Positions 9,146-63,056 of a stretch of DNA of 64,000 bases are shown here, in pieces. Source of the DNA: Marmoricola sp. (GTDB lineage Bacteria > Actinomycetota > Actinomycetes > Propionibacteriales > Nocardioidaceae); contig JAOPYE010000026.1 of NCBI GenBank assembly GCA_025964775.1, positions 1 to 64,000 on the forward strand, read 5' to 3'. Each line of letters opens with the position of its first letter. The first letter of the stretch is position 1. Both the position numbers and the translations under genes were made by a program. The notes beneath the pieces were generated by a model. The model saw only the letters and a program-made list of their open reading frames with translations. It did not search any database and was not told the DNA's origin.

Positions 9146-9155
9146 GGACACCATC

Positions 9156-10028: not shown

Positions 10029-10066
10029 CGCACGTCACCCGTCGCCAGAAGGCCGAAAGGAACACC

Positions 10067-10912: not shown

Positions 10913-10913
10913 C

Positions 10914-17482: not shown

Positions 17483-18780
17483 TGAAGCGCATCTTCGGCG
17501 GCGCCACCGGCAGGGTGATCACCCTGGGCATCTTCTTCGCGACCTGCGCGGTGATCATGGGCGTGCTGTACACCGGTACCGGCGAGCCGCTGCCGTTCAT
17601 CAGCCAGAAGAAGTACACCGTGAGCGTCGACTTCAAGGACGTCGACAACCTGGTCAAGGCTGCCCAGGTCCAGGAGGCCGGCATCCTCGTCGGAGAGGTC
17701 CGCAGCATCACCCGCGTCGACTCCAGCACGCTGCGGGTCACGTTGACGCTGAACAAGGACGCGGCGCCGCTTCACCAGGGTGCCCGGTTCCGCCTGGGGT
17801 CGCGCACGTTGGTCGGCGAGTCCTACCTCGCCCTGACCGACGGCAAGGGTCCCGTGGTGCCGGACAACAACCACCTACCCGCCAGCGCCGCCGAGCCGAG
17901 TGTCCAGCTCGACGACGTGCTCGCCAGCGTCGATGCCAACACGCGTGGCCAACTGCGCAGCCTGCTGCGCGGCCTCGGTCAGGGCACGGCAGGGACCGGC
18001 ACGGACGTCTCGTCCTTGATGACCGGGTTGGGCGACCTCGGGCGGGGTGGCCACACCGCCCTCGCCGCGATCTCGGCCCAGTCGCAGGACCTCGAGTCGC
18101 TGGCGCGTGAGACCTCCACGGTTCTGCGGGCCCTCGACACCGGACAGGGCGAGATTGCCGACCTGGTGACCGGCGCCAACACCGTCACCAGAGCCACGGC
18201 CGGTCAACGGGCCGCCATCGAGCAGACCCTGCGACTGGCGCCCGATGTGCTGACCAACGCCACGACGGCATCGGACTCGCTCACCACGCTGTCGGGCGCT
18301 TTGGCGCCGGTGGCCACGGACCTGCGGGCAGCCGCGCCGAACCTGACCCTGGCGCTGAACGAACTACCGGGGACGACCACGGACCTGCGCGGCATGATGG
18401 CTCCGCTCTCACGAGTCCTCGACGAGGTTCCGGCCACCCTGACGCGTATCCCGCAGAACGGTGTCGACCTTCGAGCGTTCATCCCGCAGGCTCACGCCAC
18501 CCTCAACGACGTCAACCCGATGCTCGCGTACGTCCGCCCCTACGGCCCGGAGCTGTCGGCGTACTTCGCGAACTTCAACGCAGTCCTGAACTACCGCGAC
18601 GAGAACGGCGCCTACTACCTGCGGCTGACCCCGCTGCTGAACACGAACTCGCCGCAGCTGCCGGTCAAGGTTCCGAATCTGCTCGGCAACTACACCAACG
18701 CGTTCCCGGCTCCTGGCTCCGGGGCCCGCCCCGGTCCGTTCACGGGGACCTATCCGAGAGTGCAGCGCGAGAGCCCATGA
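17482..18780 (+). CDS. Mce protein 6 of cluster 1 (MlaD domain)
   Basis: A 432-residue Mce-family protein with an anchor at about 9-29 and an MlaD domain containing VQEAGILVGEVRSI and LVGESYLALTDG. The helical tube region and a short C-terminal tail with VKVPNLLGNYTNAF follow. GGAGG sits seven bases before the ATG, which favours it over the GTG one codon upstream. It completes the set of six. The RND transporter gene overlaps its stop by four bases. Confidence 0.87.
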   Translation: MKRIFGGATGRVITLGIFFATCAVIMGVLYTGTGEPLPFISQKKYTVSVDFKDVDNLVKAAQVQEAGILVGEVRSITRVDSSTLRVTLTLNKDAAPLHQGARFRLGSRTLVGESYLALTDGKGPVVPDNNHLPASAAEPSVQLDDVLASVDANTRGQLRSLLRGLGQGTAGTGTDVSSLMTGLGDLGRGGHTALAAISAQSQDLESLARETSTVLRALDTGQGEIADLVTGANTVTRATAGQRAAIEQTLRLAPDVLTNATTASDSLTTLSGALAPVATDLRAAAPNLTLALNELPGTTTDLRGMMAPLSRVLDEVPATLTRIPQNGVDLRAFIPQAHATLNDVNPMLAYVRPYGPELSAYFANFNAVLNYRDENGAYYLRLTPLLNTNSPQLPVKVPNLLGNYTNAFPAPGSGARPGPFTGTYPRVQRESP

Positions 18781-49248: not shown

Positions 49249-50021
49249 CTACAGCGGAGCCACGGCGTGGCGGCGAGGCGTGACGGTCTGCATCGCCTTG
49301 CGTCGCGGCAGTTGGCCCAGCAACCGGATGAGAGCGGGTCGGGTCTCGCTCGGCCGGATGACCGCATCGACGCCGAAACCCTCAGCGGCTCGCAGCGCCC
49401 CCAACTGCCGACGAAAAGTTGACGTCAACTCCGTGCGCCTGCCCGACGGGTGGGCCGAGTTTTCGATGTCCCTGCGGTAGGTCATCTCGACCGCGGACTC
49501 GACAGCCATGACGGCAGTCTCGGCATAGGGCCAGGCCAGCACCAACTCCGGATGGAACGTTCGCCCGCCCGACATGACGACGTACCCGCCTCCGTAACCC
49601 TTGCGTACGACGACTGTGAACGTCGGCACCGGATCCTATGGCCACCGCCGTCAAAGAGCATGACCACCGGGATTCCGCGCGTAGCGGCAATCTCCCAGCC
49701 GCGCCGCTGCTTCTCGTTGCCGAGTTCGCCGTTGCTGCCCCCGGCGACCGTGAAGTCGGTCGCCATCAGCACGACCGGCTGCCCTTCGACCTCCGCGGTC
49801 CCGACGACGATCCCGTCCGCAACCAGCCCGGGCGCGGACTCAGGATGAGCCAGCGCCCCGATCTCGAACCAGGTCCCCTTGTCGGCGAGCGCGGCAACTC
49901 GCTCGCGGGCAGTCCGCTTGCCCCGCGCGCGTTGGCTGGCGACGTGCTCACGTCGCGCAGCGTCGTCGATCGCCGCGAGTGCGGTCTCGTGCGGGTAGTC
50001 GGCTGGACGAGCCTTGCTCAT
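49249..50021 (-). pseudogene. Acyl-CoA carboxylase carboxyltransferase gene with large internal deletion
   Basis: The 5' part (from ATG 50021, about 130 codons: AREHVASQRARGKRTARERVAALAD-like start, then FTVAGGSNGELGNEK and GIPVVMLFDGGGHRI) is the N-terminus of a carboxyltransferase. At about 49630 the homology jumps, with a frame change, to the C-terminal part (VVVRKGYGGGYVVMSGG, HPELVLAWPYAETAVMAVE). Roughly half of the usual 500-residue length is missing. The start overlaps the hydrolase stop (ATGA), so the gene was once a working member of that operon. Confidence 0.8.
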
Positions 50022-50887
50022 GCTGACTCTCCTGACTGTCTGGCGGGGCGGGTGCGAGCGATGAACTCGAGGATCGTCGACGCGACGAGTTCCGGGGAGT
50101 CGGACATCGGTACGTGACCGACGCCGGGGAGCCGGACGACCTCCGGAGCCCCGATCTGCTTTTCGAGCCGGCGTCCGGCCGCCCGCGAGAGCAGGACCCG
50201 GTCGTTGTCGGACCATGCGATGAGGACCGGGCAATCAAGCCTCGGCACCCAGGACACGTCTCTGGCCACCGGACGGTGGATCGAATGCCGCAGAGCCTCG
50301 CAGCCGGCGATGTCCTCGATCATCGACAGATAGGCAGCGTCAGTCACCTGCTCCGGTCGTGCAACCGTGCCGGCCAGGAGTGCGCGTCGCATCGACGGGT
50401 GCCCCAGGAACCTGTGCCGGCCCGGAGACGTCAGCCGGACGCAAGCTCGGTACGCAGCAGCGAACTGTGCTGCGAGGAATCGATCGAATGCCTTCCCAGG
50501 TGCCCAGCCCCCGGCTGGAGCCAAGCACACCACGGACAACGCCCTTCCCCTTCCGGCCAGTTGAAGGGCAGCCCAGCCGCCGAGTGAATTTCCGACCAGA
50601 TCCGCCTGCGCGATACCCAGAAGGTCCAGCTCCTCCTCGAGCGCGTCCACATAGTCGATGCTGCGGAGCGACGAGGGATCAATGAGCGGCCGACCTCCCC
50701 GGTGGCCGGGAAGGGTCACGACGTGTACCCGCCGCGACTCCAGGAGAAGCGGCAGCACGGGATCCCAGGCAGACGGTCCGGACGACATCCCGTGGATCAG
50801 GACCAGTGGCCGCGATTCGGAAATCACCGGGTCGACTCGCCTGAGTCTCCGAAACGAGAACGGGGTGAGCCGGCGCGACGACGCCAT
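50018..50887 (-). CDS. Alpha/beta hydrolase
   Basis: A 289-residue alpha/beta hydrolase: oxyanion region LVLIHGMSSGPSAWDPV, nucleophile elbow GNSLGGWAALQLAG (Ser), an acid in IAWSDNDRVL and His in GVGHVPMSDSPE complete a triad. It would cleave an ester, thioester or C-C bond; substrate unknown. It lies between an acyl-CoA dehydrogenase (one-base overlap, TGATG) and the broken carboxyltransferase gene, so it belongs to a lipid-acid pathway. Confidence 0.82.
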   Translation of the reverse strand: MASSRRLTPFSFRRLRRVDPVISESRPLVLIHGMSSGPSAWDPVLPLLLESRRVHVVTLPGHRGGRPLIDPSSLRSIDYVDALEEELDLLGIAQADLVGNSLGGWAALQLAGRGRALSVVCLAPAGGWAPGKAFDRFLAAQFAAAYRACVRLTSPGRHRFLGHPSMRRALLAGTVARPEQVTDAAYLSMIEDIAGCEALRHSIHRPVARDVSWVPRLDCPVLIAWSDNDRVLLSRAAGRRLEKQIGAPEVVRLPGVGHVPMSDSPELVASTILEFIARTRPARQSGESA

Positions 50888-52041
50888 CAGTAGGTCAGCC
50901 CACCGCGTTCGACGAGTTGTGCCGCAATCACGTTCTTCTGGATCTCGTTGGTGCCCTCGCCCACGATCATCAGCGGAGCGTCACGGAAGTACCGTTCGAC
51001 GTCGTACTCGGTGGAATAGCCGTAGCCACCGTGGATCCGGACGGCGTTGAGAGCTACCTCCATCGCCACCTCGCTGGCGAAATACTTCGCCATTCCAGCT
51101 TCCATGTCGCACCGCGCGCCTGTCTCGTACTGCTCTGCGGCGTGCAACGTGAGCTGCCTGGCGGCGGTGAGCTTCGTGGCCATCTCGGCCAGGTAGTTGC
51201 CGATCGACTGGTGCTTCCAGATCTGCTTGCCGAACGACTCCCGTTCCTGGGCGTAGGCGAGGGCGTCGTCGAACGCTGCTTGCGCGACACCGAGCGCACG
51301 CGAGGCGACCTGGATCCTCCCGGTCTCGAGCCCCTTCATCATCTGGGCGAACCCCTTGCCCTCGACGCCTCCGAGGAGTGCGTCGGCGGGCGCCACGTAG
51401 CCGTCGAAGGAAAGCTCGCAGCTCTCGACGCCCTTGTAGCCGAGCTTGGGAAGATCGCGCGACACCGTGAGACCCGGACCGTGCTCGACCAGCAGGATGC
51501 TGATGCCCTGGTGCTTGGGCTCGGCCTTCGGATCGGTCTTGCACAGCAGCGCGATCAGCTGGGACCGGCGGGCGTTGGAGATCCAGGTCTTCGAGCCCTT
51601 GATCAGGTACCCATCGTCGGTGCGGGTCGCCACCGTGCCCATGGCCTGGAGGTCGGAGCCGCCGCTGGGCTCGGTCAGTGCCATGGTCGCCCGGATCTCT
51701 CCGGTGGCCATCCGAGGCAGGTAGCGGTCCTTCTGCTCCTGGGTACCGAAGGCGAGGATCAGCTTGGCGACGACCGTGTGGCCCCCCATAGCCCCAGCCA
51801 GACTCATCCAGCCGCGTGCAAGTTGCTCAGTGACGCCCACGTAGCACGGCATCGAGACGGGAACGTCGCCCCACGGCTCAGGGATCGCGAGGCCATAGAT
51901 CCCAAGCTCCTTCATCTGCTCGATGAGCTTCTCGGGGTATTCGTTCGCGTGCTCGAGCTCCTGCACCTGGGGTTTGACCTCGCGGTCCACCCAGTCGCGT
52001 ACGGCGCGCACGATCGCCTTCTCGTCGTCCGACAGCGGCAT
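50887..52041 (-). CDS. Acyl-CoA dehydrogenase
   Basis: A 384-residue FAD-dependent acyl-CoA dehydrogenase with the full canonical set: MALTEPSGGSDLQ, KTWISNARR, LGYKGVESCELSFDGY, and the C-terminal IHGGYGYSTEYDVERYFRDA, where the Glu in TEY is the catalytic base. Length is standard. GGAGG precedes the ATG. It is the first gene of a three-gene unit with the hydrolase and broken carboxyltransferase. A 35-base inverted repeat directly upstream probably is its operator. Confidence 0.9.
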   Translation of the reverse strand: MPLSDDEKAIVRAVRDWVDREVKPQVQELEHANEYPEKLIEQMKELGIYGLAIPEPWGDVPVSMPCYVGVTEQLARGWMSLAGAMGGHTVVAKLILAFGTQEQKDRYLPRMATGEIRATMALTEPSGGSDLQAMGTVATRTDDGYLIKGSKTWISNARRSQLIALLCKTDPKAEPKHQGISILLVEHGPGLTVSRDLPKLGYKGVESCELSFDGYVAPADALLGGVEGKGFAQMMKGLETGRIQVASRALGVAQAAFDDALAYAQERESFGKQIWKHQSIGNYLAEMATKLTAARQLTLHAAEQYETGARCDMEAGMAKYFASEVAMEVALNAVRIHGGYGYSTEYDVERYFRDAPLMIVGEGTNEIQKNVIAAQLVERGGLTY

Positions 52042-52053
52042 CTGTTTCCTCCT

Positions 52054-52088
52054 GAATCAACGTCTGTTTTTTATTTTAACATTGATTC
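52054..52088 (-). promoter_or_regulatory. Inverted-repeat operator and AT-rich promoter of the dehydrogenase
   Basis: GAATCAACGT (52054-52063) and ACATTGATTC (52079-52088) face each other over a T-rich core, 13 bases upstream of the ATG. The half-site recurs as ACGTTAATCC before the second mce operon (62944-62953, minus strand) and ACTTTGATTA before the CoA-ester lyase (63037-63046). A TetR-type repressor is the likely reader. Confidence 0.6.
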
Positions 52089-52105
52089 GATGGATCGCGA
52101 AGGCG

Positions 52106-52885
52106 TCAGGCCCGGGCTCCGATCTCCTCGATCTCCACGCGTTTCACGGCCATGTGGACGTAGTACGTCATGGTGTAGATGAACACGAAGAACGCCCCCA
52201 GGGCGATCCAGTAGTTGAACAGCCCGTGCCACGCGAACGGGCCAGTCTGGAAGAACGGCATCACGACAAGCGGGACGAACGTGAATGCCATCAGGTAGCA
52301 GAACCAGCCGAGCCACTTCGGGAAGTACGGCTTCGCCCGGCCGTCAACCACGATCGCCGTGCCGAGGGCGACCATCTGGATCAGCGTGACGACGAAGGTC
52401 ATGTCGAAGATGAACCACCCCGCGTCGCTGAGCAGCTGGATGTCTTGCGGTGAGCGCCCGGTGGTGCGGAAGCTCGCCGTCAGCCACATGACCCCCGAGA
52501 ACAAGGTCGTGAACACCGTCGCAATGCCACCGAAGAACTCGATGCGGTTCAACAACCCGTGCGGGCCCTCAATGCGCTGCATCAGCTGAGCGATCACGAC
52601 GCTCCACGGCAGGTAGAGCGTCGCGATGAACATGTACCCGACCATGCCGATCCTGATCCTGGTCTCGTGTGCGAGGAAGAAGTCCTTGATCTCGTTCGCG
52701 TTCAGCGACTCATGGGGGGCGGGTAGGAACCCCGCGATGACCGCCCAGAAAATGAGCCCTATCGTCGCGTAGATGGCCCCGGACCACGCCGACATCTTCC
52801 AGATCCTGAAGGCGAAACGATCCCGCCTCTCACGATCCGCGTCGCTGATGCCTGCGGACTCGGCCAGGTCGGTGGTCATGGTCAT
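52106..52885 (-). CDS. Multi-pass membrane protein, paralogue A
   Basis: A 259-residue membrane protein with about six hydrophobic segments. I recognise no family. It is clearly related to the protein at 53801-54589: both have RIGMV, QRIEGPxG/GRIEGPMG, WLTAS, SLIQ/TLIQ and VPLV(V/L)(M/V)PFF.TGPFAW at corresponding places. Charged His/Glu residues in FLAHETRIRIGMV might bind metal. It is the last gene of the chain that starts with the second mce operon. AGGAGCATCCG precedes the ATG. Confidence 0.75.
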   Translation of the reverse strand: MTMTTDLAESAGISDADRERRDRFAFRIWKMSAWSGAIYATIGLIFWAVIAGFLPAPHESLNANEIKDFFLAHETRIRIGMVGYMFIATLYLPWSVVIAQLMQRIEGPHGLLNRIEFFGGIATVFTTLFSGVMWLTASFRTTGRSPQDIQLLSDAGWFIFDMTFVVTLIQMVALGTAIVVDGRAKPYFPKWLGWFCYLMAFTFVPLVVMPFFQTGPFAWHGLFNYWIALGAFFVFIYTMTYYVHMAVKRVEIEEIGARA

Positions 52886-52915
52886 CGGATGCTCCTCCGT
52901 GGATCGTTGGATGTG

Positions 52916-53206
52916 TCAGGTGGCCAGGTAGAAGCCGAAGATGATCGCTGGAACGATCGCCGACCACGCCTCGAAGACGAGGCGCAGCTGCCATGGAGCG
53001 TGGCGTAGCTCCATGAAGTCGAGAATGATCAGCCGGACCTTCCAGCCAACTAGCGCGAACGTCGCTCCGGTCCCGGTCGTCGCGCCGACTGCGTCCTTGG
53101 ACAGGAGCCAGGTGGTCGTGACCGTTGCCGCCATCAGGAGTACCCAAACGACAGTTGGCTGCTGACGGCGCCGGAACGGTACGGAGACGGTCGACATCGC
53201 GCTCAC
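52916..53206 (-). CDS. Cytochrome c oxidase subunit IV-like small membrane protein
   Basis: A 96-residue protein with three hydrophobic helices: TVVWVLLMAATVTTTWLL, TFALVGWKVRLIILDFMELR and SAIVPAIIFGFYLA. The K.R.I..DFMELRHAP segment is the mark of prokaryotic subunit IV/NorF-like proteins. It starts with a GTG overlapping the stop of the subunit III-like gene (GTGA). No subunit I or II gene is in the window, so this is a stand-alone III/IV pair. Confidence 0.75.
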   Translation of the reverse strand: MSAMSTVSVPFRRRQQPTVVWVLLMAATVTTTWLLSKDAVGATTGTGATFALVGWKVRLIILDFMELRHAPWQLRLVFEAWSAIVPAIIFGFYLAT

Positions 53207-53799
53207 CGGACCAGGTACAGCAACGGGAACAGGACAACCCAGAGCAGGTCGACCATGTGCCAGAACACGGCCGCGCTTTCGAACCCCGCGAGACTGCGCT
53301 GCTCCGTGGGACGCCGCAGTCGGAACCAGAAGACCGAGAGGACCAGTGTCCCGACGATGACGTGGGCGAGGTGAATCCCCGTCATCATGAAGTAGTACAT
53401 GAAGAAGTCGCCGCTGGCAGGAGTGTGTCCGGAGTGCACTTCGGCGACGTACTCAAGGACCTTTGAGACGGCAAACGCGACGCCCCCGAGGATCCCGAAC
53501 CCCAGCCATCGCAGGGCGGCACGGTCGCGATCGGTGCGCAGCGCCTTCAGCGTCATGGCGACGCACCAGGAACTGGTGAGCAGCAGGAGCGTGTTGATTC
53601 CGCCGCGGTGGAAATCGAGGGCGTGCCGCCCGGTCTCGAAAACTTCTGGGTGCTTCATGCGCGCGCTCATGAACGAACCGAAGAGCAACGAGAAGATCAC
53701 CATGTCTCCGGCGATCAGGACCCACATGCCTTCGATCCCGGGAATCCGTCTTCCTGCTGCCGGTGCTCTGGTCACCATTGGCTCGGTCGTGACAGACAT
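53203..53799 (-). CDS. Cytochrome c oxidase subunit III-like (NorE-type) membrane protein
   Basis: A 198-residue protein with five hydrophobic helices: EGMWVLIAGDMVIFSLLFGSF, TLLLLTSSWCVAMTLKAL, GILGGVAFAVSKVLEY, MMTGIHLAHVIVGTLVLSVF and AVFWHMVDLLWVVLFPLLYL. The HxxHVxxG and WHxVDxxW motifs are conserved in heme-copper oxidase subunit III/NorE proteins. Without catalytic subunits here its role is unknown; it may associate with a distant oxidase or serve the membrane proteins around it. One base separates its ATG from the upstream stop. Confidence 0.82.
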   Translation of the reverse strand: MSVTTEPMVTRAPAAGRRIPGIEGMWVLIAGDMVIFSLLFGSFMSARMKHPEVFETGRHALDFHRGGINTLLLLTSSWCVAMTLKALRTDRDRAALRWLGFGILGGVAFAVSKVLEYVAEVHSGHTPASGDFFMYYFMMTGIHLAHVIVGTLVLSVFWFRLRRPTEQRSLAGFESAAVFWHMVDLLWVVLFPLLYLVR

Positions 53800-53800
53800 G

Positions 53801-54589
53801 TCAACCAACCGCTGCCAGGTCCTCGGCCTCAAGGCGGCGCAGCGCCTTCCAGGCGTACGGCGTGACCACGGCGATGAGCACGAAGAACATCACGAAGACG
53901 GCCCAGAAGCTGATCAGTCCCTGCCAGGCGAAGGGTCCCGTCTTGAAGAACGGCACCAGAACGAGCGGAACGTACGTGGCAGCAGTCAGGAAGCTGACCC
54001 AGGCCACCCAGTGCGGGATCAGAGGAGCGGTCCGCCGGTCACGCAGGATGGCGAAGCCCAACCCGAGGTTCTGGATCAGCGAACAAGCGAAGGTCAGATC
54101 GAAGAAGATCCAGCCGAGGTCGTACAGGGTCTGGACCGTCTCGGGCGATCGCACACCCGGACGCATGCTCGCGGTGAGCCAGATGATCGCCGGCATGACC
54201 GTGACCCAGGCCGTCAGCAAGCCGCCGAGGAGCTCGACAGTGGAAAGCACACCCATCGGTCCTTCGATCCGACCGATGATCTTCGACAGCACCGCGCTCC
54301 ACACGTAGTAGAAGGGAGCGCCGAACGCCATCATCACCATCCCGATCCGCAGGCCGTTGCCCTGGCTGTGGAAGTACGCCGTGATTCCGGCCGCGTCGAG
54401 ATGTTCGGACGGCGGCGGCCAGAAGCCTGCCAGCACCGCGAAGCCCGTCAGCCCGAAGCCGACATAGATGAGGCACGACAGGAGCGAGACGCGCAGCACC
54501 AGGTAGTCGCCCCTGGTGCGGTTACTGACGTCGAGCTCGTCGATGACCGCGGTGGAGCCGCTGTGCTCGGTGTTCATCAGAATGGACAT
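53801..54589 (-). CDS. Multi-pass membrane protein, paralogue B
   Basis: A 262-residue membrane protein with about six hydrophobic helices (for example LLSCLIYVGFGLTGFAVLAG and FWAVFVMFFVLIAVVTPYAW), paralogous to the one at 52106-52885. Family not recognised. I place the start at the ATG at 54589 with AAGGAAG upstream; only seven bases separate it from the mceF stop, so it is almost certainly co-transcribed with the second mce operon. The two paralogues bracket the subunit III/IV-like genes, suggesting a membrane complex of four proteins. Confidence 0.75.
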   Translation of the reverse strand: MSILMNTEHSGSTAVIDELDVSNRTRGDYLVLRVSLLSCLIYVGFGLTGFAVLAGFWPPPSEHLDAAGITAYFHSQGNGLRIGMVMMAFGAPFYYVWSAVLSKIIGRIEGPMGVLSTVELLGGLLTAWVTVMPAIIWLTASMRPGVRSPETVQTLYDLGWIFFDLTFACSLIQNLGLGFAILRDRRTAPLIPHWVAWVSFLTAATYVPLVLVPFFKTGPFAWQGLISFWAVFVMFFVLIAVVTPYAWKALRRLEAEDLAAVG

Positions 54590-54596
54590 CGGTCTC

Positions 54597-55763
54597 TCAC
54601 TTCCTTTGACAATCGGCGGCGGTGGGTTCGCGGCGGGCGGGATCACCAGGGCACGGCACGTTGCGGGCGCCGCGGACGGCACGAGGATCACTCTTCGCTG
54701 CGGCGCAGTAGTAGAGCGGGGTGTAGGCAGGCCCGTTGTCGTCGGGAAGGCGCCACTGCGCGACCGGCAGGAAGCCCTCGGTGCACTCGGACGGCTTGTT
54801 CGCCTGCGAAAGCGTCAACCGGACGGCATCGAGGCCGCCACGTTCGGGGAGGGTGACCGACTGGACCATCGACAGTGCGGTCGGGTAGTCGGACAGCAGC
54901 TGGGCCAGGTAGCTCTGATAGGTCGCCAGGACCGTCGCCACCGTCTTCAACGGTGCGAGGAAGCCCGGGATCGACGGGCCGACGTCCTGGAGGAAGCTGG
55001 TCGTCTCGGACGTGAAGGTCGGGCCCGTCGCCAGGAGTGCCTGGAGGTTCTTGTCGCCGGCGCGCAGCTGATCCGAGACCTGCGCGAGCTTGCTCGTCAG
55101 TCCCTCGAAATGACTGCCCGCCGCGTTGACGGTCGAGAGCAGCGGCTCCGTGTCCTGGAGCAGGGCCTGGGTCTGCGGGTACGCCGCGTCCGCCTGCTGT
55201 AAGAAGGCCCGCGACCCGTCAAGGATCTGCTGCAGGTCGCTGCCACGGCCTTCGAGCGCGGTCGAGGTCTGTGTGAGCAGGCGGGACAGCTGCACCTGGG
55301 GAACGCTGGCGACCAGCTTCGCCACGTTGTCGAGCACCGGACCGATCCCGACCGGAACCGACGTACGACTGACGGGAATGACGTCACCGCCGTGCAGGTC
55401 CGCGGCCGACGGATTCTGCGACGGAACCAGTTCGACGTACTGCTCGCCGACCGCTGAGGTGCTGTGGATCTCCGCCCGGGTGTCCCGAGGGATCTCGATG
55501 CTGTTGCGGATCGAGAGATCGACCTGGATACCGGAGCCGGTGAGCTTCAACGACCGGACCTTGCCGACCGGCGTTCCGCGGTAGTTCACCTGGGCACCGG
55601 TGTAGAGGCCTGCCGCCTCAGTGAAGTCCGCCGACACGGTGTAGCGCCCGATCCCGAGGGCCTCGGGGATGCGCAGGAACACGACGCCCAGAACCAGGAT
55701 GCCGATGATCGAAGCGATCGTGAACGCAATGAGCTGCTTGCGGATCAGGCCGGAGATGATCAT
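54597..55763 (-). CDS. mceF: Mce protein F of cluster 2
   Basis: A 388-residue Mce protein with anchor (about 10-30), MlaD domain (YTGAQVNYRGTPVGKV, AVGEQYVELVP), a helical region and a Cys-rich tail (about 325-388). Sixth in the classical order. Its ATG overlaps the mceE stop (ATGA). One of six subunits of the second importer's lipid tunnel. Downstream it runs directly into the membrane-protein quartet. Confidence 0.88.
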   Translation of the reverse strand: MIISGLIRKQLIAFTIASIIGILVLGVVFLRIPEALGIGRYTVSADFTEAAGLYTGAQVNYRGTPVGKVRSLKLTGSGIQVDLSIRNSIEIPRDTRAEIHSTSAVGEQYVELVPSQNPSAADLHGGDVIPVSRTSVPVGIGPVLDNVAKLVASVPQVQLSRLLTQTSTALEGRGSDLQQILDGSRAFLQQADAAYPQTQALLQDTEPLLSTVNAAGSHFEGLTSKLAQVSDQLRAGDKNLQALLATGPTFTSETTSFLQDVGPSIPGFLAPLKTVATVLATYQSYLAQLLSDYPTALSMVQSVTLPERGGLDAVRLTLSQANKPSECTEGFLPVAQWRLPDDNGPAYTPLYYCAAAKSDPRAVRGARNVPCPGDPARREPTAADCQRK

Positions 55764-57055
55764 GAGCGCGCCCCCTTCGAGCCGCCGCCACCGGAGAGTA
55801 GGCCCCCGAGTAGTCCGGCGAGCCCGCCGGAGGCCGACCCTGGCCTGGTGGCCACCGTCGGGGTTACCGGGCGGGACGCCGAGCTGGATGCCTGCGTGGT
55901 CGCCGGCCTGCCCGTCAGGCCCGACGTCAGTCCCCCGAGCAGACCGCCGAGACCTGAAACGACTCCGCCGAGCCCGAAGCCGCCCAGCAGGCTGACCAGC
56001 TGCGGCACCGTCGGCATTCCTGGGAAGCCGGGGATGCTCGGCAGCCCGTCCTGGGTGGTGAAGCCGTGGACCAGGGAGTTGTTGGTCAGATCGAGGACCA
56101 GATCGAGATTGCAGTAGTCACCCCGGCAGGCGTTGCGCATGGTCTCCGGAGCGAACGGGAAGGTGACGGCGAAACCGAGGCCACGGACGAGCGAGGCACC
56201 GGCCTGGTGGATGGCTGCCAGCGCCGGGGCGAGGTTGCGGAGGTTCGCGACGAGATCCGCGCGCGTGGACTCGACCAGTGGCGTGGCGACCGAACCGAGG
56301 TTCTTCAGGGAGGCGAGCGCCGCGGTCAGCCTGGGACGCTCACGGCTCAGGGTCGCCAGCGCAGGCCCGAGCTCGTCGATGCTGCGGGTCAGCGTGTCCT
56401 TGTTGTGGGCGAACCGGGCCGAGAGCTGGTCAACGCTGTCGATCGCGCTGTAGATCTGCTCCTTCTGGGCGTCCAGCGCCGTGACAAAGGTGTTGATCCG
56501 GGGCAGAAGGTCCCGGACCGCGAGGTTGTTGGGGTTGAAGGCCTTGCCGAGCTCGCTGGTGATCGTGCCGAGCTGGGCGAGACCGCCGCCGTTGAGGACG
56601 ACCGATGCCGCCGACAGCACCTGCTCTGTGGCCGGGTACGCCGATCCCCGCGACAACGGGATCGTTGAACCGGAGGCGAGCTGGCCCTCGGCGGCTTCGT
56701 CGGTCGGCGCCGCGAGCTCGAGGTAGCTCGCGCCGAGCAGGCTGTTGACCCCGACCGTCGCCACGGCGTTGGCCGGAAGACGGGTCTTGCCGTCGATGCT
56801 GATCACCGCGACCGCATGCCAGTCGACAGCGGTGATCTTCGTGACGGTGCCCACCGCGATGTCGCCGACCTTGACCTGGGCGTTCGGGGTGAGCGTGCCC
56901 ACGTCAGGAAGGTCCACGGTGATCTTGAGCGAACCCGCACCCGTGCCCACGCCGCCTGGCAGCTGCATGTTCTCGATGCCGTTGAAGCTGCACCCGCCGA
57001 GGAAGACCGCTGACGCGATCAGCACGGCCGGGATCCGGAGTCGCCGCAGGTCCAT
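55760..57055 (-). CDS. mceE: Mce lipoprotein E of cluster 2
   Basis: A 431-residue Mce-family lipoprotein. The lipobox FLGGC puts the lipidated Cys at residue 22, as in mycobacterial MceE/LprK proteins. MlaD domain follows (VKVGDIAVGTV, LLGASYLELAAP), then the helical region and a Gly/Leu/Ser-rich tail (LGGLLGGL-type repeats, about 365-431). The ATG lies in TGATG, overlapping mceD by one base; an upstream GTG would overlap by four. Confidence 0.9.
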   Translation of the reverse strand: MDLRRLRIPAVLIASAVFLGGCSFNGIENMQLPGGVGTGAGSLKITVDLPDVGTLTPNAQVKVGDIAVGTVTKITAVDWHAVAVISIDGKTRLPANAVATVGVNSLLGASYLELAAPTDEAAEGQLASGSTIPLSRGSAYPATEQVLSAASVVLNGGGLAQLGTITSELGKAFNPNNLAVRDLLPRINTFVTALDAQKEQIYSAIDSVDQLSARFAHNKDTLTRSIDELGPALATLSRERPRLTAALASLKNLGSVATPLVESTRADLVANLRNLAPALAAIHQAGASLVRGLGFAVTFPFAPETMRNACRGDYCNLDLVLDLTNNSLVHGFTTQDGLPSIPGFPGMPTVPQLVSLLGGFGLGGVVSGLGGLLGGLTSGLTGRPATTQASSSASRPVTPTVATRPGSASGGLAGLLGGLLSGGGGSKGARS

Positions 57056-58164
57056 CACTGGATCCCCAGGATCTTCTCGAGCAGGCCGATGAACGACGTG
57101 GTTTGCGGGTTGCCTGCGGCCTGGTCGAGGACGTTGCCCAGGACGCTCTGACAGAGCTTGCCCAGCTGGGCCCCCGAGGTCTCGGAGGCACCGCCGATGG
57201 CGCCGCACACCAGCTGTCCGGGCGAATGGATGTTGGCCATGTGCAGATCGACGCCGACCGCGTTCTGCCGCTGGTGGACGGCTTCGATCAGGTTGGCCAG
57301 CGCGTTCGGGGCCACCTGCAAGGTCTGCGCGAGCGACTCCTGTTCGTTCGCAACGACCTTGGTCACATCGGTCAGTCCCAGGATGTTGCTCTTCAGAGCC
57401 GCCCGGTTCGTCGTGACGAACTTCGCAACCTTCTGCACCGCGTCGGCCAGGTTCGTCAGGCTGGTCCGGATCGACTGCTTGTCGTCGACGAGGAGCCCCG
57501 AGACCGCGTCGAGGCGGGACGTGAACTCCGAGATCTGCTGATCGCTCTCGGCGAGGGCGCCCACGAACACCTGCAGGTTCCTGACCGTCGAGAACGCGTC
57601 CCCCGATCCCGCCTGGAGGGCCTGGATCGCGCGGGACATCGAGGCGATCGTGGAGTTGATCGTGCCGCCCTCGCCCTCCAGCGCCACCGAGGCCGAACTG
57701 ACGACGCGGGACAGCGCTCCGGTCTGGTTGGCCCCGTGCGGGCCGAGGGCGACCGCCAGCGAGTTGAGCTCGTCCTTGATCTGGTCCCACTCGACGGGAA
57801 CGGCGGTCCTCGATTCGGGGATCACCGCTCCGTCCTGCAGTACCGGGCCCGCCGTGTACTGGGGCGCCAGCTGGAGGTAGCGGCCACTCACCAGTGACGG
57901 CGCCACGATCACCGCCCCGGCGTCGGCGGGCACCTTCACGCCGTGGTCGATGTCGAAGACCACCTTGACCCGGTCGCGCTCTGGCGTGATGCTCTTGATC
58001 TTTCCGACCGGTACGCCGAGGATCCGCACCTCGTCGCCGGCATAGATCCCGTTGGTGGTGCCGAAGTACGCCGTCGCCTCGGTCGAGCGGGCTCCTGGAG
58101 CCCAGACCAAGACGACGGCCAGCACGAGGACGCCGAGGACGGCGGCCAGCAGCCGGCGCATCAT
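57055..58164 (-). CDS. mceD: Mce protein D of cluster 2
   Basis: A 369-residue Mce protein with an anchor (about 4-22), MlaD domain (YAGDEVRILGVPVGKI, VSGRYLQLAPQ) and helical region, ending in a short tail. The first of two Met codons overlaps the mceC stop (ATGA). Fourth gene in the classical order. Confidence 0.89.
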   Translation of the reverse strand: MMRRLLAAVLGVLVLAVVLVWAPGARSTEATAYFGTTNGIYAGDEVRILGVPVGKIKSITPERDRVKVVFDIDHGVKVPADAGAVIVAPSLVSGRYLQLAPQYTAGPVLQDGAVIPESRTAVPVEWDQIKDELNSLAVALGPHGANQTGALSRVVSSASVALEGEGGTINSTIASMSRAIQALQAGSGDAFSTVRNLQVFVGALAESDQQISEFTSRLDAVSGLLVDDKQSIRTSLTNLADAVQKVAKFVTTNRAALKSNILGLTDVTKVVANEQESLAQTLQVAPNALANLIEAVHQRQNAVGVDLHMANIHSPGQLVCGAIGGASETSGAQLGKLCQSVLGNVLDQAAGNPQTTSFIGLLEKILGIQ

Positions 58165-59162
58165 CGGCCCGCCCCTGCCGCAGACGCCCGGGGCAGCGTG
58201 ATCACCGGCGGGATCAGGTTGCCGGGCAGCAGGTTCTGCAGGTACGCCGTGAAGAACGGCCCGCTCGCCACCACTTCGCCGAGTCCGGTCGCGTAGACCG
58301 ACAGACCCTTGAGCGACTTGTCGAGATTCGACTTGTTAGCCTGCAAGGTGGCTACGACTCCGTGCAGCTGCGCCAGGGCCGGACCGACGATGCCCTGGTT
58401 CTGGTCGACCAGTGCGCTCAGCTGCGCGGACATCGAGGAGACGTTGCTGAGCAACGTGCTGATGTCCTGACGACGTTTCAGCAGCTCGGCGAAGAGCAGG
58501 TTGCCGTCCTTGACGAGGGCGGTCATGTCGCCACTGCGGTCCGCGAGGACCTGGGAGAACGTGTTGGCGTGCGCCAGCAGGGCCTCAAGGGTGGCGTCGC
58601 GAGACCCGAGCGTCTCGGACAGCCGACCGATGCCGGTGATGGCCGAACGCAGTTCCGGCGTCGCCCCGTCGAGGGTCGAGGAGACCACATTGAGGGCGCT
58701 CGCGACCTGATTGACGTCGATCTTGCCGGTCTCCGTCGTCAGCTGCGAGAGCGCATCGGTCACGTCGTACGGCGAGGTGGTGCGCGACAGCGGGATCTGC
58801 CCGTGAAGAGTTCCACCGCCTGCCGACTTCAGGACCAAGGCCTTCGCACCGAGGACCGTGACCACCTCGATCGAGGCGGTGGTCTGGTCTCCCAGCTTGA
58901 TCGAGCCGTTGGTGATCGAGAAGTCCACCACCACGCCGCGACCACCGAGCTTGACCGAGGAGATCCGCCCGACCTTCAGCCCACTGACCTCGACGGGGTC
59001 GCCCTGTTTGAGTCCTGCCGCTTCGGAGATCACGGCCGAGTAGTGGCGACCGAAGACCGCGATCACGGTGTTGATGTTGAGTACCAGCGTGACCACCAGC
59101 ACAACGATCACGATCGCTCCGATCCCCAGCGGCATCGGATCGCGCTCACGGAACATCTTCAT
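58161..59162 (-). CDS. mceC: Mce protein C of cluster 2
   Basis: A 333-residue Mce protein with an anchor (about 11-33), MlaD domain (QGDPVEVSGLKVGRI, VLGAKALVLKS) and helical region. I use the ATG at 59162, one base after the mceB stop, because the hydrophobic anchor follows MKMFRERDPMPLG directly; upstream frame is a shadow of mceB. Confidence 0.88.
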   Translation of the reverse strand: MKMFRERDPMPLGIGAIVIVVLVVTLVLNINTVIAVFGRHYSAVISEAAGLKQGDPVEVSGLKVGRISSVKLGGRGVVVDFSITNGSIKLGDQTTASIEVVTVLGAKALVLKSAGGGTLHGQIPLSRTTSPYDVTDALSQLTTETGKIDVNQVASALNVVSSTLDGATPELRSAITGIGRLSETLGSRDATLEALLAHANTFSQVLADRSGDMTALVKDGNLLFAELLKRRQDISTLLSNVSSMSAQLSALVDQNQGIVGPALAQLHGVVATLQANKSNLDKSLKGLSVYATGLGEVVASGPFFTAYLQNLLPGNLIPPVITLPRASAAGAGR

Positions 59163-59163
59163 G

Positions 59164-60177
59164 TCAGTTGCACCTCTTGACCGGTGACTGGACCTTGGGC
59201 GACGTGATCGGGTTCCGTTCGTCACCGACGAGGACGACGACCGAGCACAGGTAGAAGTTGAAGAACGATCCGTGCGACGCCACCCGGTCGAGCCGGTTGT
59301 AGACGTCCGGCAGCAGTGCCAGCGTCTGGTTCAGCCGGGTCGAGTTGGCATTGAGCGTCGACGAGACCGCGTCCAGGCCCGCCAGTGTCGCGGCCAGCGG
59401 CGTCCGGACCTGGCCGAACAGGGTGGCCAGGACGCCGGCCAGCTGACTGATGTCGCCGAGCGCCGAGCCGATCGGGTTTCGATCGGCCGCAAGCCCGGAG
59501 ACCAGGTTGCGCGCTTGGGTCACGGCCTGGCGAAGCTGGGTGTCGTGGGCATCGAGGCTGCCCAGGACGGTGTTCAGATTGGTGATGACGGCGCCGATCG
59601 CCTGATCGCGATCAGCGAGGCCGTTGGTCAGGGACGCCGTCTTCGCCAGGAGCGAGGTGATGTCGCCGCCGCGGCCCTGCAGGGTGTCGACCAGTCCCGT
59701 CGCGAGCGCGTTGATCTGCTGCGGAGCCAGTCCCTGGAACAGCGGCCGGAATCCGTTGAGCAGTACGTCGAGGCTGAGCGCAGGCGCCGTACGGGACGCC
59801 GGGATCGTGGATCCGGGCGCCAGCGGCGTACCGACGTCCGGGGGCTGGGTGAGCTCGAGGTACCGGTCGCCCAGGAGGTTCTGGTACCGGACGACGACGT
59901 GGGTCGCGGTGGACAAGTGCTGATCGGTCGCCACGTGGAACTTGACGATGATCTGGTTGCCGGCGCCGACATCGAGCCCGTCGACCTGTCCGACGCGCAC
60001 ACCGGCTACCCGGACGATGTCTCCGGTCTTGAGCCCGCTGACGTCGGTCATGACCGCTTGATAGGCGTTGGACGGCCCGAGGGTCACTTGCGCAAGCGTC
60101 AGGTACAGCAGCACTGCCACCACGAGCCCTACGACGGCGAAGATGGCGAGCTTCGTCGCCTCGGCACGGATCCTCAC
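59164..60177 (-). CDS. mceB: Mce protein B of cluster 2
   Basis: A 337-residue Mce protein. The GTG at 60177 overlaps the mceA stop (GTGA) and is followed at once by the anchor (KLAIFAVVGLVVAVLLYLTL). The MlaD domain shows KTGDIVRVAGVRVGQV and LLGDRYLELTQ. The helical region and a short basic tail follow. Confidence 0.88.
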   Translation of the reverse strand: MRIRAEATKLAIFAVVGLVVAVLLYLTLAQVTLGPSNAYQAVMTDVSGLKTGDIVRVAGVRVGQVDGLDVGAGNQIIVKFHVATDQHLSTATHVVVRYQNLLGDRYLELTQPPDVGTPLAPGSTIPASRTAPALSLDVLLNGFRPLFQGLAPQQINALATGLVDTLQGRGGDITSLLAKTASLTNGLADRDQAIGAVITNLNTVLGSLDAHDTQLRQAVTQARNLVSGLAADRNPIGSALGDISQLAGVLATLFGQVRTPLAATLAGLDAVSSTLNANSTRLNQTLALLPDVYNRLDRVASHGSFFNFYLCSVVVLVGDERNPITSPKVQSPVKRCN

Positions 60178-61256
60178 TGCGGCGTCCCCCTCTCCGGGTA
60201 GGGGATCTGGCTCTTCGACAGCATCGGCAGGCCGGCGCACGTCGGCCCGCGACCCTGCGGATAGCTCGGCAGGTCCTGCGGGTACGTGTACGGCGGGAGG
60301 GCGCCGCGGATCGAGACCTTGCCGATCAGCGCGTTCGCCTTGCCGCCGATGACATCGGCCATGATGTCGCGGGTCTTGTCGAGACCCTCGAGGAAGCACG
60401 GCAACTCGCTCGAGTACGCAGCCAGGGTGCTGGTCGTCGGTCGAAGCTCGCGAAGGACCTCGGCGAGTGCGGTCGAGTTGACGCCCAGCACCTTGACTCC
60501 CTCGCCCCCGAGCAGGCTCAGGCCGACCAGAAGTCGATCGAGCGCTTGCTGCTGGGTGACGACGGTCTTGCCGGTGACCGTCGCGTTCTCCAGGATCTGA
60601 AGGAGGTCAGGAGAGATTCGCAGCCCGAGCTGGCCGAACGCGGCCACCTGCAGAAGGTCGCGCCGTAGTTGCGGCAGGTCGGGTTCGAGCTTGGTGAGGT
60701 AGGCGTCGGCCTGAGTCGCGATGTCGGCGATGGTCGTGCCACGGCCGCGCACTGCATCGGCGAGCGATGTCAGCGTGACGTTCAGATCGGCGACGTTCAC
60801 GCTGTTGAGCACACCTTCCAGGCTCTTGAACACCGTGTTGACCTCGGTGGTGACGCCGGCGTTGTCGATGACCGCTCCGGCCGAGATGCGGGCGGCGCTC
60901 GGCGTTGCGGGCAGGCTGAGGGCGACGAATTTGGCTCCGAAGATCGTCGGTGCCTCGATCTGTGCCACGACGTTGGCCGGGATCATGGCGACCTGCGACC
61001 GGTCGAGATCCAGGGTGAGCACAGCTGACCCGTCCGGCATCGCCTTGATCGATCCGACGCGACCGACCTCGATCCCGCGCATCTTCACGACGTTGCCGGT
61101 ATCCATCACCAGGCCCGTGCGACTCGTGACCAGCGTGACCTCGAGCGGGTGCGAGAAGGCATGGGTGTAGAACGCCGCAGTCAGCCCGAACGCCGCCAGG
61201 ACAGCGAGGACCATCCCGGCCCCCGCCAGCCTCACGAACGACTTCGACTCGGTCAT
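60174..61256 (-). CDS. mceA: Mce protein A of cluster 2
   Basis: A 360-residue Mce protein with an anchor (about 10-30), MlaD domain (TGNVVKMRGIEVGRV, IFGAKFVALSLP) and helical region; the tail PYTYPQDLPSYPQGRGPTC is typical of MceA proteins. It begins four bases after the yrbEB stop. Confidence 0.89.
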   Translation of the reverse strand: MTESKSFVRLAGAGMVLAVLAAFGLTAAFYTHAFSHPLEVTLVTSRTGLVMDTGNVVKMRGIEVGRVGSIKAMPDGSAVLTLDLDRSQVAMIPANVVAQIEAPTIFGAKFVALSLPATPSAARISAGAVIDNAGVTTEVNTVFKSLEGVLNSVNVADLNVTLTSLADAVRGRGTTIADIATQADAYLTKLEPDLPQLRRDLLQVAAFGQLGLRISPDLLQILENATVTGKTVVTQQQALDRLLVGLSLLGGEGVKVLGVNSTALAEVLRELRPTTSTLAAYSSELPCFLEGLDKTRDIMADVIGGKANALIGKVSIRGALPPYTYPQDLPSYPQGRGPTCAGLPMLSKSQIPYPERGTPQ

Positions 61257-61260
61257 CGCC

Positions 61261-62100
61261 TCAGCCCGCCAGGTGGAACGTGTTGAAGTTGGCGTAGATC
61301 GACATGCCGATCAGGAGGTTGACGATCATCACTCCGGACAGGGACGCCCGCACCGAGCGACCGACTGCCTCGCCCACACCGGCCGGTCCGCCCTTGGCCG
61401 TGTACCCGAAGAAGGTGTGGATCAGCATCACCACGACCACCATCCCGAGCACCTGGATGTAGGAGAAGAAGATGTCCAGGGGTGAGAGGTAGGAGAAGAA
61501 GTAGTGCTGGAAGTTGCCTGCTCCGGTGTTGTAGAAGAACACCAGCAACAGGTAGTCCGCCAGGAAGCCCGCGAGGGTGGCGAAGACGTAGAGCGGCGTG
61601 ATGACGATCATCCCGGCGATGACTCGCGTGGTGGCCAGGTACGGCAGCGACGGGATCGACATGACCTCGATCGCATCGATCTCTTCAGAGATCCGCATGG
61701 CGCCCAGTTGTGAGGTCGTGGCTGCTCCGAGGGTGACCGCGAGCGCGACCCCAGCCAGGAGCGGAGTCGAGAGGCGGGCTGTGAAGAAGGCAGCGAGGAT
61801 CGGGCTCAGCGATCCCACGCCGATGTTCGACGAGGACTCGAACCCCTGAGCGGCAGCGACGGCGCCGGCGAAGAACGTGATGGAGGCGACGATCACAACA
61901 GAACCACCGATGAGGGCCAACGCACCCGTTCCTGTGCCCAGCTCGGCAATCAGCCTGATGACCTCGCGACGGTGACGACGCAGCGCACGAGGAATGGAGA
62001 CGAAGACACGCGCATAGAACAGCCCCTGCTCTCCGATGGAATCCAATGCGGCTGCGGGCTTGCCGGCCACTGCTCTGAGGCGGTCACTCACGACAGACAT
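61261..62100 (-). CDS. yrbEB: YrbE/MlaE permease B of cluster 2
   Basis: A 279-residue MlaE-family permease with about five hydrophobic helices and the coupling segment ISEEIDAIEVMSIPS, then GYTAKGGPAGVGEAVGRS near the C-terminus. With YrbEA it forms the permease of the second importer. The ATPase gene is absent from this operon, so it must use one encoded elsewhere, possibly the one at 10.1 kb. Confidence 0.92.
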   Translation of the reverse strand: MSVVSDRLRAVAGKPAAALDSIGEQGLFYARVFVSIPRALRRHRREVIRLIAELGTGTGALALIGGSVVIVASITFFAGAVAAAQGFESSSNIGVGSLSPILAAFFTARLSTPLLAGVALAVTLGAATTSQLGAMRISEEIDAIEVMSIPSLPYLATTRVIAGMIVITPLYVFATLAGFLADYLLLVFFYNTGAGNFQHYFFSYLSPLDIFFSYIQVLGMVVVVMLIHTFFGYTAKGGPAGVGEAVGRSVRASLSGVMIVNLLIGMSIYANFNTFHLAG

Positions 62101-62116
62101 TGATTGCTCCTGGCCC

Positions 62117-62884
62117 TCAGAGGATCGCGAACTGGATCAGGCTGATGGTCAGACTGATGGGGACCAGGACAGCGACGGTGATGACCACGGCCTGATTGAC
62201 AGCATCGCCGACGCCTTTGGAGCCGCCCTTGACGTTCAGCCCCATGTAGCAGGCGATGACGGCCGCCACGAGGCCGAACACGAACGCCTTGATCATGCTG
62301 ACGGCCAGCTCAGGCGCACCGGTGAACAACGAAACGCTGTCGACGTAGGCGCCTGGAGTCGCTCCCTGCAGGTAGACCGAGAAGAAGTAGCCGCCGACCA
62401 GGCCGCCAGCCGAGATGAGGATGTTCAGGATCATCGAGACACCGACGCAGGCCACGATCCGCGGAACGACCAGTCGCTGGATCGGGTCGATGCCGAGAAC
62501 GCGCATCGCATCGATCTCCTCACGGATGGACCGGGCACCGAGATCCGCGCAGATCGCAGTTCCGCCGGCGCCTGCGACGACGACGACGGTGACGAACGGT
62601 CCGATCTGCTGGACGGAGGCGATCCCGGCAATCCCACCGGCAAGATCCAGTGCGCCGAGGTCCTTGAGAAGCAGGTTCACCTCGAAGATCACCAGAAGGG
62701 TGAATCCCAGCATCACGAGAAGTGTCGGGATCAGCGAGACCCGCGTGATGAACCAGGCCTGCTGGACGCACTCGCGCCAGGAGAAGGGCTTGGTGAACAG
62801 CGTCACGACCGAGTCGAGGAACATCGCGATCACGTCCCCGAAGGCGCGCATCGGCTTGGCCACAGCAGAAATCGCAGTGCTCAA
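62117..62884 (-). CDS. yrbEA: YrbE/MlaE permease A of cluster 2
   Basis: A 255-residue MlaE-family permease, first gene of the second mce operon. Coupling segment IREEIDAMRVLGIDP and the NVKGGSKGVGDAVNQAV motif are clear. I select the TTG at 62884, since GGAGG lies six bases upstream; the longer frame upstream has no RBS and runs into the promoter region. Confidence 0.9.
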   Translation of the reverse strand: MSTAISAVAKPMRAFGDVIAMFLDSVVTLFTKPFSWRECVQQAWFITRVSLIPTLLVMLGFTLLVIFEVNLLLKDLGALDLAGGIAGIASVQQIGPFVTVVVVAGAGGTAICADLGARSIREEIDAMRVLGIDPIQRLVVPRIVACVGVSMILNILISAGGLVGGYFFSVYLQGATPGAYVDSVSLFTGAPELAVSMIKAFVFGLVAAVIACYMGLNVKGGSKGVGDAVNQAVVITVAVLVPISLTISLIQFAIL

Positions 62885-63056
62885 GGGACGCCTCCAGGCC
62901 GGTGAGAGGAGTGAAAGTACAAGCAGCGAAGCTTTTTGAATGTGGATTAACGTAACTCGACTTATGGCAGGTGTCAAGGATCACGCCGAACCCGTACCGG
63001 CGGCTGTACGGACAGAAGGCGATCGCATATAATTGAACTTTGATTAAGGAGTCCGA
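62885..63056. promoter_or_regulatory. Divergent promoter region of mce cluster 2 and the CoA-ester lyase
   Basis: An AT-rich island in a GC-rich setting. On the plus strand TATAAT (63028-63033) is a perfect -10 box for the lyase gene, followed by the half-site ACTTTGATTA (63037-63046). On the minus side, GGATTAACGT (62944-62953) is the matching half-site before mce cluster 2. Both resemble the inverted repeat before the dehydrogenase at 52.0 kb. Confidence 0.6.

Follow-up and report, generated by a model that had tools for sequence, protein, structure and literature searches.

A stand-alone COX3/COX4 pair with an unnamed membrane partner behind an mce operon of Marmoricola: an apparently separate module, probably linked to hydrophobic-compound use

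What do genes resembling those for oxidase subunits III and IV do at the end of an operon for a lipid importer? The question is raised by a 64,000-nucleotide stretch of DNA from Marmoricola sp. (family Nocardioidaceae; contig JAOPYE010000026.1, positions 1 to 64,000), hereafter the window, whose minus strand reads, from 62884 down to 52106, yrbEA-yrbEB-mceA-F-paralogue B-COX3-like-COX4-like-paralogue A. A first-pass annotation had proposed that an Mce importer is co-transcribed here with a quartet made up of oxidase accessory subunits and two copies of an unrecognised membrane family, with no oxidase subunit I or II at hand. The coordinates bear out the span, the gene order and the seven-base gap between mceF and paralogue B; no relative of COX1, COX2, NorB, NorD or NorQ was found in the window; and paralogues A and B, 43% identical across 254 residues, match no family above the Pfam cut-off. 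Spacing and common strand suggest that the mce genes and the quartet are co-transcribed. The paralogue family is referred to here by the working name PAR, and a profile built from A and B was used to find further members. Because the same set occurs in many bacteria without an oxidase gene beside it, PAR-COX3-COX4 appears to be a membrane module in its own right, with a probable role in the use of hydrophobic compounds.

The recurrence of the set is the central observation, and a neighbourhood survey upheld the earlier suggestion that the stand-alone pair and PAR belong together. Genome contigs were searched with a COX3 alignment and the best 80 of 587 stretches yielded 79 loci, among which near kin are over-represented because the stretches most similar to the window protein ranked first. 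All 79 loci of this wide scan have COX4 next to COX3. In 67 of them a PAR gene lies no more than 3.5 kb from COX3 and on its strand, and in 70 one is found anywhere in the locus; among the 12 loci without such a PAR gene, L099 sits on a contig that ends just upstream of COX3 and two are nor clusters, so that 67 of 77 loci outside nor clusters carry PAR. Judged by their titles, 39 of the 79 belong to Actinomycetota and most of the others to Pseudomonadota; a cyanobacterium and one bin each of Acidobacteria and Deltaproteobacteria contribute a single row apiece. Two triads (L123, L171) come from metagenome bins whose titles name Klebsiella pneumoniae and Coriobacteriales (goat ileum), taxon labels that look doubtful.

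A gene-called set, which also includes loci from other searches, comprised 106 loci, of which five were dropped as no COX3 was called, leaving 101 (one locus is present under two names, L028 and L155). The block around the first COX3 reads PAR-COX3-COX4 in 55, PAR-PAR-COX3-COX4 in 17, COX3-COX4-PAR in seven, PAR-COX3 in seven and other PAR orders in two; PAR is therefore contiguous with COX3 in 88 loci, and 13 show no contiguous PAR. The window order, PAR-COX3-COX4-PAR, recurs once, in Mycobacterium triplex (L153), and one locus (L102) holds two divergent triads. The order PAR-COX3-COX4 is kept across phyla at 40–55% identity of COX3 to that of the window. Among 81 dereplicated loci, pairwise distances correlate between PAR and COX3 (r 0.72), COX3 and COX4 (0.78) and PAR and COX4 (0.63), and none of 2000 permutations gave values as high. 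As far as such distances can tell, this shows that the three proteins travel together, which indicates shared inheritance and not contact.

In haem-copper oxidases the COX3/COX4 pair is a cofactor-free, lipid-binding part, and the stand-alone proteins resemble their canonical counterparts (CtaE, CyoC/CyoD, QoxC) in Pfam family, predicted fold and residues. The AlphaFold2 model of the COX3-like protein (predicted local distance difference test, pLDDT, 93.7) superposes on COX3 chains of actinobacterial supercomplexes with template-modelling (TM) scores of 0.77–0.85 (0.85 to 7q21_E), and COX4_pro is matched by all 31 members of the COX4 alignment, the window protein included. In 105 PAR-linked COX3 rows, seven residues in common with CtaE and CyoC are fully or almost fully conserved: E116, H143, H146, W180, H181, D184 and W187. 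These likenesses underlie the strongest rival explanation, which is possible if somewhat doubtful: the COX3- and COX4-like proteins would assist the cell's aa3 oxidase, as isoforms for particular conditions or as assembly factors, much as NorEF would for a haem-copper enzyme encoded at another site, with PAR as a helper, tuning respiration during lipid burning. It gains from the position of NorE within the stand-alone COX3 clade (below), as NorE acts beside a haem-copper-type reductase. Against it, queries with this genome's aa3 COX1, CyoA and CyoB found no aa3 or bo3 COX1 in any of the 79 loci, and neither COX1 nor COX2 is encoded in the window operon. The genome, estimated to be 94% complete, has a single PF00115 match, an aa3-type COX1 on contig C27, which already has a COX3 gene some kilobases away; the other two of its three COX3 genes are that of the window locus and that of a second PAR-COX3-COX4 set on contig C33. 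Moreover, Lys113 of the COX3-like protein, invariant in the 105 PAR-linked rows, in 13 PAR-less rows and in three NorE-type rows (one of which, from Azospirillum, has no nor genes in its stretch), is replaced by Gln in CtaE and in the aligned aa3 sequences and by Glu in CyoC and in the aa3-600 quinol oxidase. Glu174, considered as a further hallmark of stand-alone COX3, was dropped because Paracoccus COX3 has it too. On the suggested tie to the respiratory chain, which is possible, the evidence points both ways: the COX3 fold and the canonical residues are retained, but no aa3 or bo3 COX1 was found in the 79 loci and no conserved ligands in PAR (see below).

A COX3 tree of 123 rows, which has long branches and only two canonical rows (CtaE and CyoC), places the stand-alone proteins in a clade separate from the latter (support 100/99). 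The four nor-cluster rows, two with the label NorE plus L143 and L161, fall into one branch of eight rows (98/97) together with one PAR-linked row, and this branch is nested inside another of 43 rows (99/90), 36 of them PAR-linked. On this tree NorE is nested inside the stand-alone COX3 radiation, as expected from common ancestry. NorE-NorF, the accessory pair of cytochrome c nitric oxide reductase (norEFCBQD operons), likewise consist of a COX3-like and a small COX4-like protein without their own subunit I; NorE carries Lys113, and Lys56 of the COX4-like protein, Gln in CyoD, is shared with two NorF-type rows. The differences lie in the company kept. Queries with NorB, NorD and NorQ, accompanied by positive controls, found two nor clusters among the 79 loci (L143, L161), both PAR-less; nor clusters on Roseibium and Chelatococcus plasmids also lack PAR, which makes four nor clusters (L143, L161, L178, L179) with no PAR match in the stretches read. 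In the window no link to norCB/norQD was found, nor a NorB in this genome (94% complete), where PF00115 finds only the aa3 COX1. Two PAR-bearing stretches (L191:4703-9049 and L203:16933-19598) encode NorQ-like AAA and weakly NorD-like proteins and no NorB; in L191 these adjoin an AveC-like protein and PAR. The triad is a conserved three-gene membrane module, a variant of the NorEF-type stand-alone COX3/COX4 pair with an unnamed third partner. The function of NorE and NorF is itself called not well defined in a passage of PMC8139620.

What is this third partner? The AlphaFold2 model of paralogue A, built from a 69-sequence alignment (predicted TM score 0.89), is all-helical, and PAR proteins have several hydrophobic segments. 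Foldseek of the model against the PDB gave no match at E <= 0.001 (best 0.047; query TM 0.13–0.36 among the 50 rows listed), and hmmsearch against PDB sequences gave none at E <= 1. A weak likeness to DUF4386 (PF14329) stays below the gathering cut-off for the window members (17.4 bits against 27.6 for A, no match at E <= 1 for B) and reaches E <= 0.01 in six of the 69 aligned members (best 3.2e-7); the term DUF4386 was not found in the literature searched. Conserved positions are mostly Pro, Gly, Trp, Ala, Arg, Asp and Glu. None of them is a His or Cys among the 69 sequences, which disfavours a haem or metal site, and the quartet as an oxidase in its own right was rejected on this ground and for want of COX1/COX2 nearby. 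PAR is sparsely distributed, occurring at E <= 1e-8 in 25 of 396 genomes drawn from the phylum and at E <= 1e-12 in 18 of 341 Nocardioidaceae genomes; as these searches scored only seven or eight candidates per genome, copy numbers derived from them are lower bounds. It also multiplies: a separate count gave ten matches in genome G028, five of its PAR genes lie within 9 kb (L024), Mycobacterium pinniadriaticum has seven matches in 20 kb (L139), and G112 has seven PAR loci with COX3 at one. On a Rhodococcus koreensis plasmid PAR (L183:9928-10697) is split across two frames, either a broken gene or an assembly fault.

It has to be asked whether PAR might be a transporter or exporter of pathway intermediates that COX3 and COX4 only stabilise, the mce neighbourhood then reflecting shared regulation without contact. 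Genes of a TetR cluster stand divergently and directly upstream in 13 of 101 loci, an MMPL transporter adjoins one PAR, and the nickel transporter family NicO gives a weak match at E <= 0.01 in two of the 69 members (best 0.0012). The lack of a significant fold match in the PDB and of any transporter family above the Pfam cut-off for the window members makes this explanation improbable.

The surroundings of the module give a more general clue. Protein clusters within 9 kb of COX3 were collected for 109 loci, one representative per cluster being scanned with Pfam, and they include short-chain dehydrogenase (34 loci), enoyl-CoA hydratase (26), acyl-CoA dehydrogenase (23), acyl-CoA ligase (20), P450 (17), luciferase-like monooxygenase (14) and aldehyde dehydrogenase (13). 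An MCE cluster, which takes its name from how its representative is annotated on a plasmid, was counted in nine. These counts are minima, because families are split over several clusters. Triads on plasmids of Sphingobium amiense, Mycobacterium paragordonae, Azoarcus and Diaphorobacter likewise have genes for an acyl-CoA dehydrogenase, a thiolase or an enoyl-CoA hydratase in their vicinity. Overall, these neighbourhoods suggest the catabolism of hydrophobic compounds. One could also picture the module as the membrane part of an oxygenase system, anchoring P450, F420-dependent (luciferase-like) or other monooxygenases or supplying them with oxygen and substrate; in addition to the P450 and luciferase-like counts just given, a luciferase-like gene identified by Pfam and its 77–90% identical relatives stand beside PAR in G028, G646, G728 and G582. 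Most loci have neither cluster, however, the counts are raw, no monooxygenase was found among the genes read at 50018-62884, and PAR is without conserved His or Cys, so that this alternative is distinctly improbable.

The link to mce operons is a matter of lineage. In Nocardioidaceae, 22 COX3 loci were read (one contig was too short, and L210 has little flank on one side), and mce or yrbE genes lie within 10 kb of COX3 in 11 of the 21 assessable loci, where about one would be expected given that 4.7% of this genome lies no further than 10 kb from MCE genes; because the loci are partly orthologous, the binomial value of 5e-10 overstates independence. A pure chance link in this family is unlikely. 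The genome itself has 41 MlaD matches grouped into seven mce operons, and its second PAR-COX3-COX4 set (G000:C33:124397-126017; L022:4397-6017) lies some 4.5 kb away from the yrbE genes belonging to another of them. There the triad is followed by an AMP-ligase gene, an opposite-strand gene for a 772-residue LuxR/AAA regulator (Pfam) and the yrbE-mce operon, and a similar order, with regulators 57–59% identical to that on C33, recurs in G582, G644, G646 and G668. Among further actinobacterial loci, mce genes lie near the triad in four of 17 from another set, three of the four being alike. Two Rhodococcus plasmids show the same proximity, and in Rhodococcus sp. ZPP the triad stands ahead of a yrbE-mce operon on the same strand.

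The mce operon of the window has orthologues, sought with at most seven candidates scored per genome, in ten copies in nine of the 341 Nocardioidaceae genomes (yrbEB 82–84% identical in the eight genomes besides the window's). One copy, G582 C46, is not assessable, as the contig ends after mceF. In seven of the nine assessable orthologues, counting the window, PAR B directly follows mceF, with spacings from a 7-nucleotide overlap to a 27-nucleotide gap, and COX3-COX4 lies within 3.6 kb; PAR B in these loci is 58–60% identical to that of the window. The order mceF-PAR-COX3-COX4 on one strand is shared by eight genomes: the window's, G028, G557, G644, G646, G668, G701 and G728.

Several findings weigh against the view that the module serves lipid import and catabolism. 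Flanks read in 76 of the 79 wide-scan loci hold no mce genes (the exceptions are L099, L155 and L157), which is why the module is not an mce subunit set, and the idea that it is one everywhere was rejected; among the 39 actinobacterial loci of that scan three have mce genes against 1.8 expected from the same 4.7% (P of at least three, 0.28), so no general association in actinobacteria follows. The proposed coupling of importer and quartet thus stands as frequent in Nocardioidaceae, and outside that family the set lies mostly away from mce genes, an outcome that the first-pass annotation had itself named as its refutation. Even within the orthologous loci, PAR and COX3 are parted by a hydrolase gene on the opposite strand in G028, G644, G646 and G668. 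As no opposite-strand gene intervenes in the window, G557, G701 and G728, one common operon is plausible in these four and limited to them. G582 C6 has a luciferase-like gene (77% identical to that of G028) and then PAR after mceF, and no COX3 or COX4 in the stretch read; the orthologue in G738 has neither PAR nor COX3 there. In the G582 C6 copy mceE is read as two genes (L214:7489-8738), through a broken gene or an assembly fault. The window COX3-COX4 pair is closest to those of G728 (50%) and Patulibacter (55%), and the pair in five genomes is of the type of this genome's second triad (55–62% identical); on these identities, the pair behind the orthologous mce operon is not one lineage. In G644, G646 and G668 the pair is accompanied by a further PAR and followed by a second mce operon, with a regulator homologous to that of the second triad on C33 (57–59%), so that the pair may belong to that operon; the stretches read in G028 and G701 contain no second operon of this kind. 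As for the catabolic setting, PAR-COX3 of Novosphingobium pentaromativorans lies beside rhamnose genes and a TonB receptor and not beside lipid catabolism, and the neighbour counts are raw numbers, for which no enrichment over a genomic background is claimed.

A further alternative is hitch-hiking, in which the module would reside in catabolic islands by chance and its link to mce would carry no functional meaning. The patchy, clustered distribution over 18 of 341 Nocardioidaceae genomes, an actinobacterial mce count that does not clearly exceed the estimated base rate, and the four split loci are in keeping with it. The persistence of PAR-COX3-COX4 across phyla at 40–55% COX3 identity and of mceF-PAR in seven genomes at the PAR identities given above makes it the least probable of the explanations weighed here.

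The reading preferred, with a probability of roughly one in three, is that PAR-COX3-COX4 is a cofactor-free, NorEF-related membrane module that helps to import and break down a hydrophobic compound. PAR and the COX3- and COX4-like proteins would form one integral-membrane complex that itself carries no redox cofactors and is related to NorE-NorF, with PAR as an added partner. PAR would be the compound-specific subunit, because it multiplies and does so in catabolic islands, and the COX3/COX4 pair would hold PAR together with lipid or substrate in the membrane. In the window operon, the Mce/YrbE importer would bring the compound to the inner membrane, where the module may take it over or guard it, and the product might then pass to the encoded hydrolase and acyl-CoA dehydrogenase. 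Put more broadly, and more tentatively, PAR-COX3-COX4 may represent an undescribed class of membrane complex that lacks cofactors and occurs in Actinomycetota, Pseudomonadota and other groups, in which an oxidase III/IV pair acts as a lipid-handling scaffold for the uptake or channelling of hydrophobic substrates; this class would be coupled to Mce in Nocardioidaceae, and the NorEF of denitrifiers would be a specialised offshoot that lost PAR.

A place directly behind mceF on the same strand is also that of the mas genes, described in a 2007 survey of actinobacterial mce operons, according to which the C-terminal part of Mas proteins, some 160 residues long, is conserved and lies outside the membrane (PMC1810536). 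PAR B shares the position. The PAR family differs in that, to judge by the model of paralogue A, its members are all-helical membrane proteins with several hydrophobic segments and no apparent exported C-terminal Mas region. Genes of 162 and 181 codons stand between mceF and PAR in G557, and from size and place one may guess that they encode Mas proteins. The word 'cytochrome' does not appear in the main text of that survey (PMC1810536), and no description of the triad was found in the literature searched. Oxidase III/IV genes without an oxidase are easily dismissed as respiratory leftovers; here they are part of a recurrent three-gene unit. With NorEF in the same radiation, a common function of NorEF and PAR modules becomes testable, and the module supplies candidates for accessory proteins of Mce transport in actinobacteria.

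The features of the locus are collected in Table 1. Pfam identified MlaE and MlaD/Mce4 domains, mceF matches TIGR00996 (9.3e-73), and intergenic gaps from yrbEA through mceF range from -4 to 16 nucleotides. The COX3-like gene follows paralogue B after one nucleotide; the COX4-like gene starts either at a GTG in a 4-nucleotide overlap with the COX3-like stop or at an ATG at 53197; and paralogue A, preceded by GGAGG, follows after 30 nucleotides. An initial assignment of the COX4-like gene to the frame 52833-53237 was wrong, that frame having no Pfam match. The transcription unit may continue into the acyl-CoA dehydrogenase and alpha/beta hydrolase genes. In G028 an 83% identical relative of the former precedes the orthologous mce operon by a few kilobases, and 40–45% identical relatives of the latter are present in seven orthologous loci.

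Table 1. Genes of the mce-quartet locus and the two genes that follow it (window coordinates)
Feature	Position	Strand	Evidence and remarks
yrbEA, MlaE-type permease, 255 aa	62117..62884	-	Pfam MlaE 4.2e-58 (scanned as longer frame); TTG start with GGAGG
yrbEB, MlaE-type permease, 279 aa	61261..62100	-	Pfam MlaE 3.5e-48
mceA-mceF, six MCE genes	54597..61256	-	PF02470 match at each gene; internal gaps -4 to 1 nt
Paralogue B, PAR family, 262 aa	53801..54589	-	43% identical to paralogue A; start 7 nt past mceF
Stand-alone COX3 homologue, 198 aa	53203..53799	-	PF00510 63.8 bits (cut-off 23.8), 2.9e-17
COX4_pro homologue, 96 aa	52916..53206	-	PF03626 45.1 bits (cut-off 28.9), 1.4e-11
Paralogue A, PAR family, 259 aa	52106..52885	-	AlphaFold2 model pLDDT 93.7; DUF4386 match below cut-off
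Acyl-CoA dehydrogenase	50887..52041	-	Pfam Acyl-CoA_dh domains; 64 nt past paralogue A; AGGAGG ahead of start
Alpha/beta hydrolase	50018..50887	-	Pfam Abhydrolase_6 2.9e-24; 1-nt overlap with acyl-CoA dehydrogenase

Terminator and promoter scans added nothing. An operator-like motif, AATCAANGTT, is present in two intergenic gaps, as AATCAATGTT at 52078-52087 preceding the acyl-CoA dehydrogenase gene and as AATCAAAGTT at 63036-63045 preceding yrbEA, its frequency in the window being not above chance. Elsewhere in the genome a lone PAR gene (G000:C33:130396-131133; L022:10396-11133) lies between a gene for an FAD amine-oxidase-like protein and a DUF7065 plus phosphotransferase pair. The window itself harbours a second mce operon, at 8282-18780 on the plus strand, with six MlaD matches at 10992-17844.

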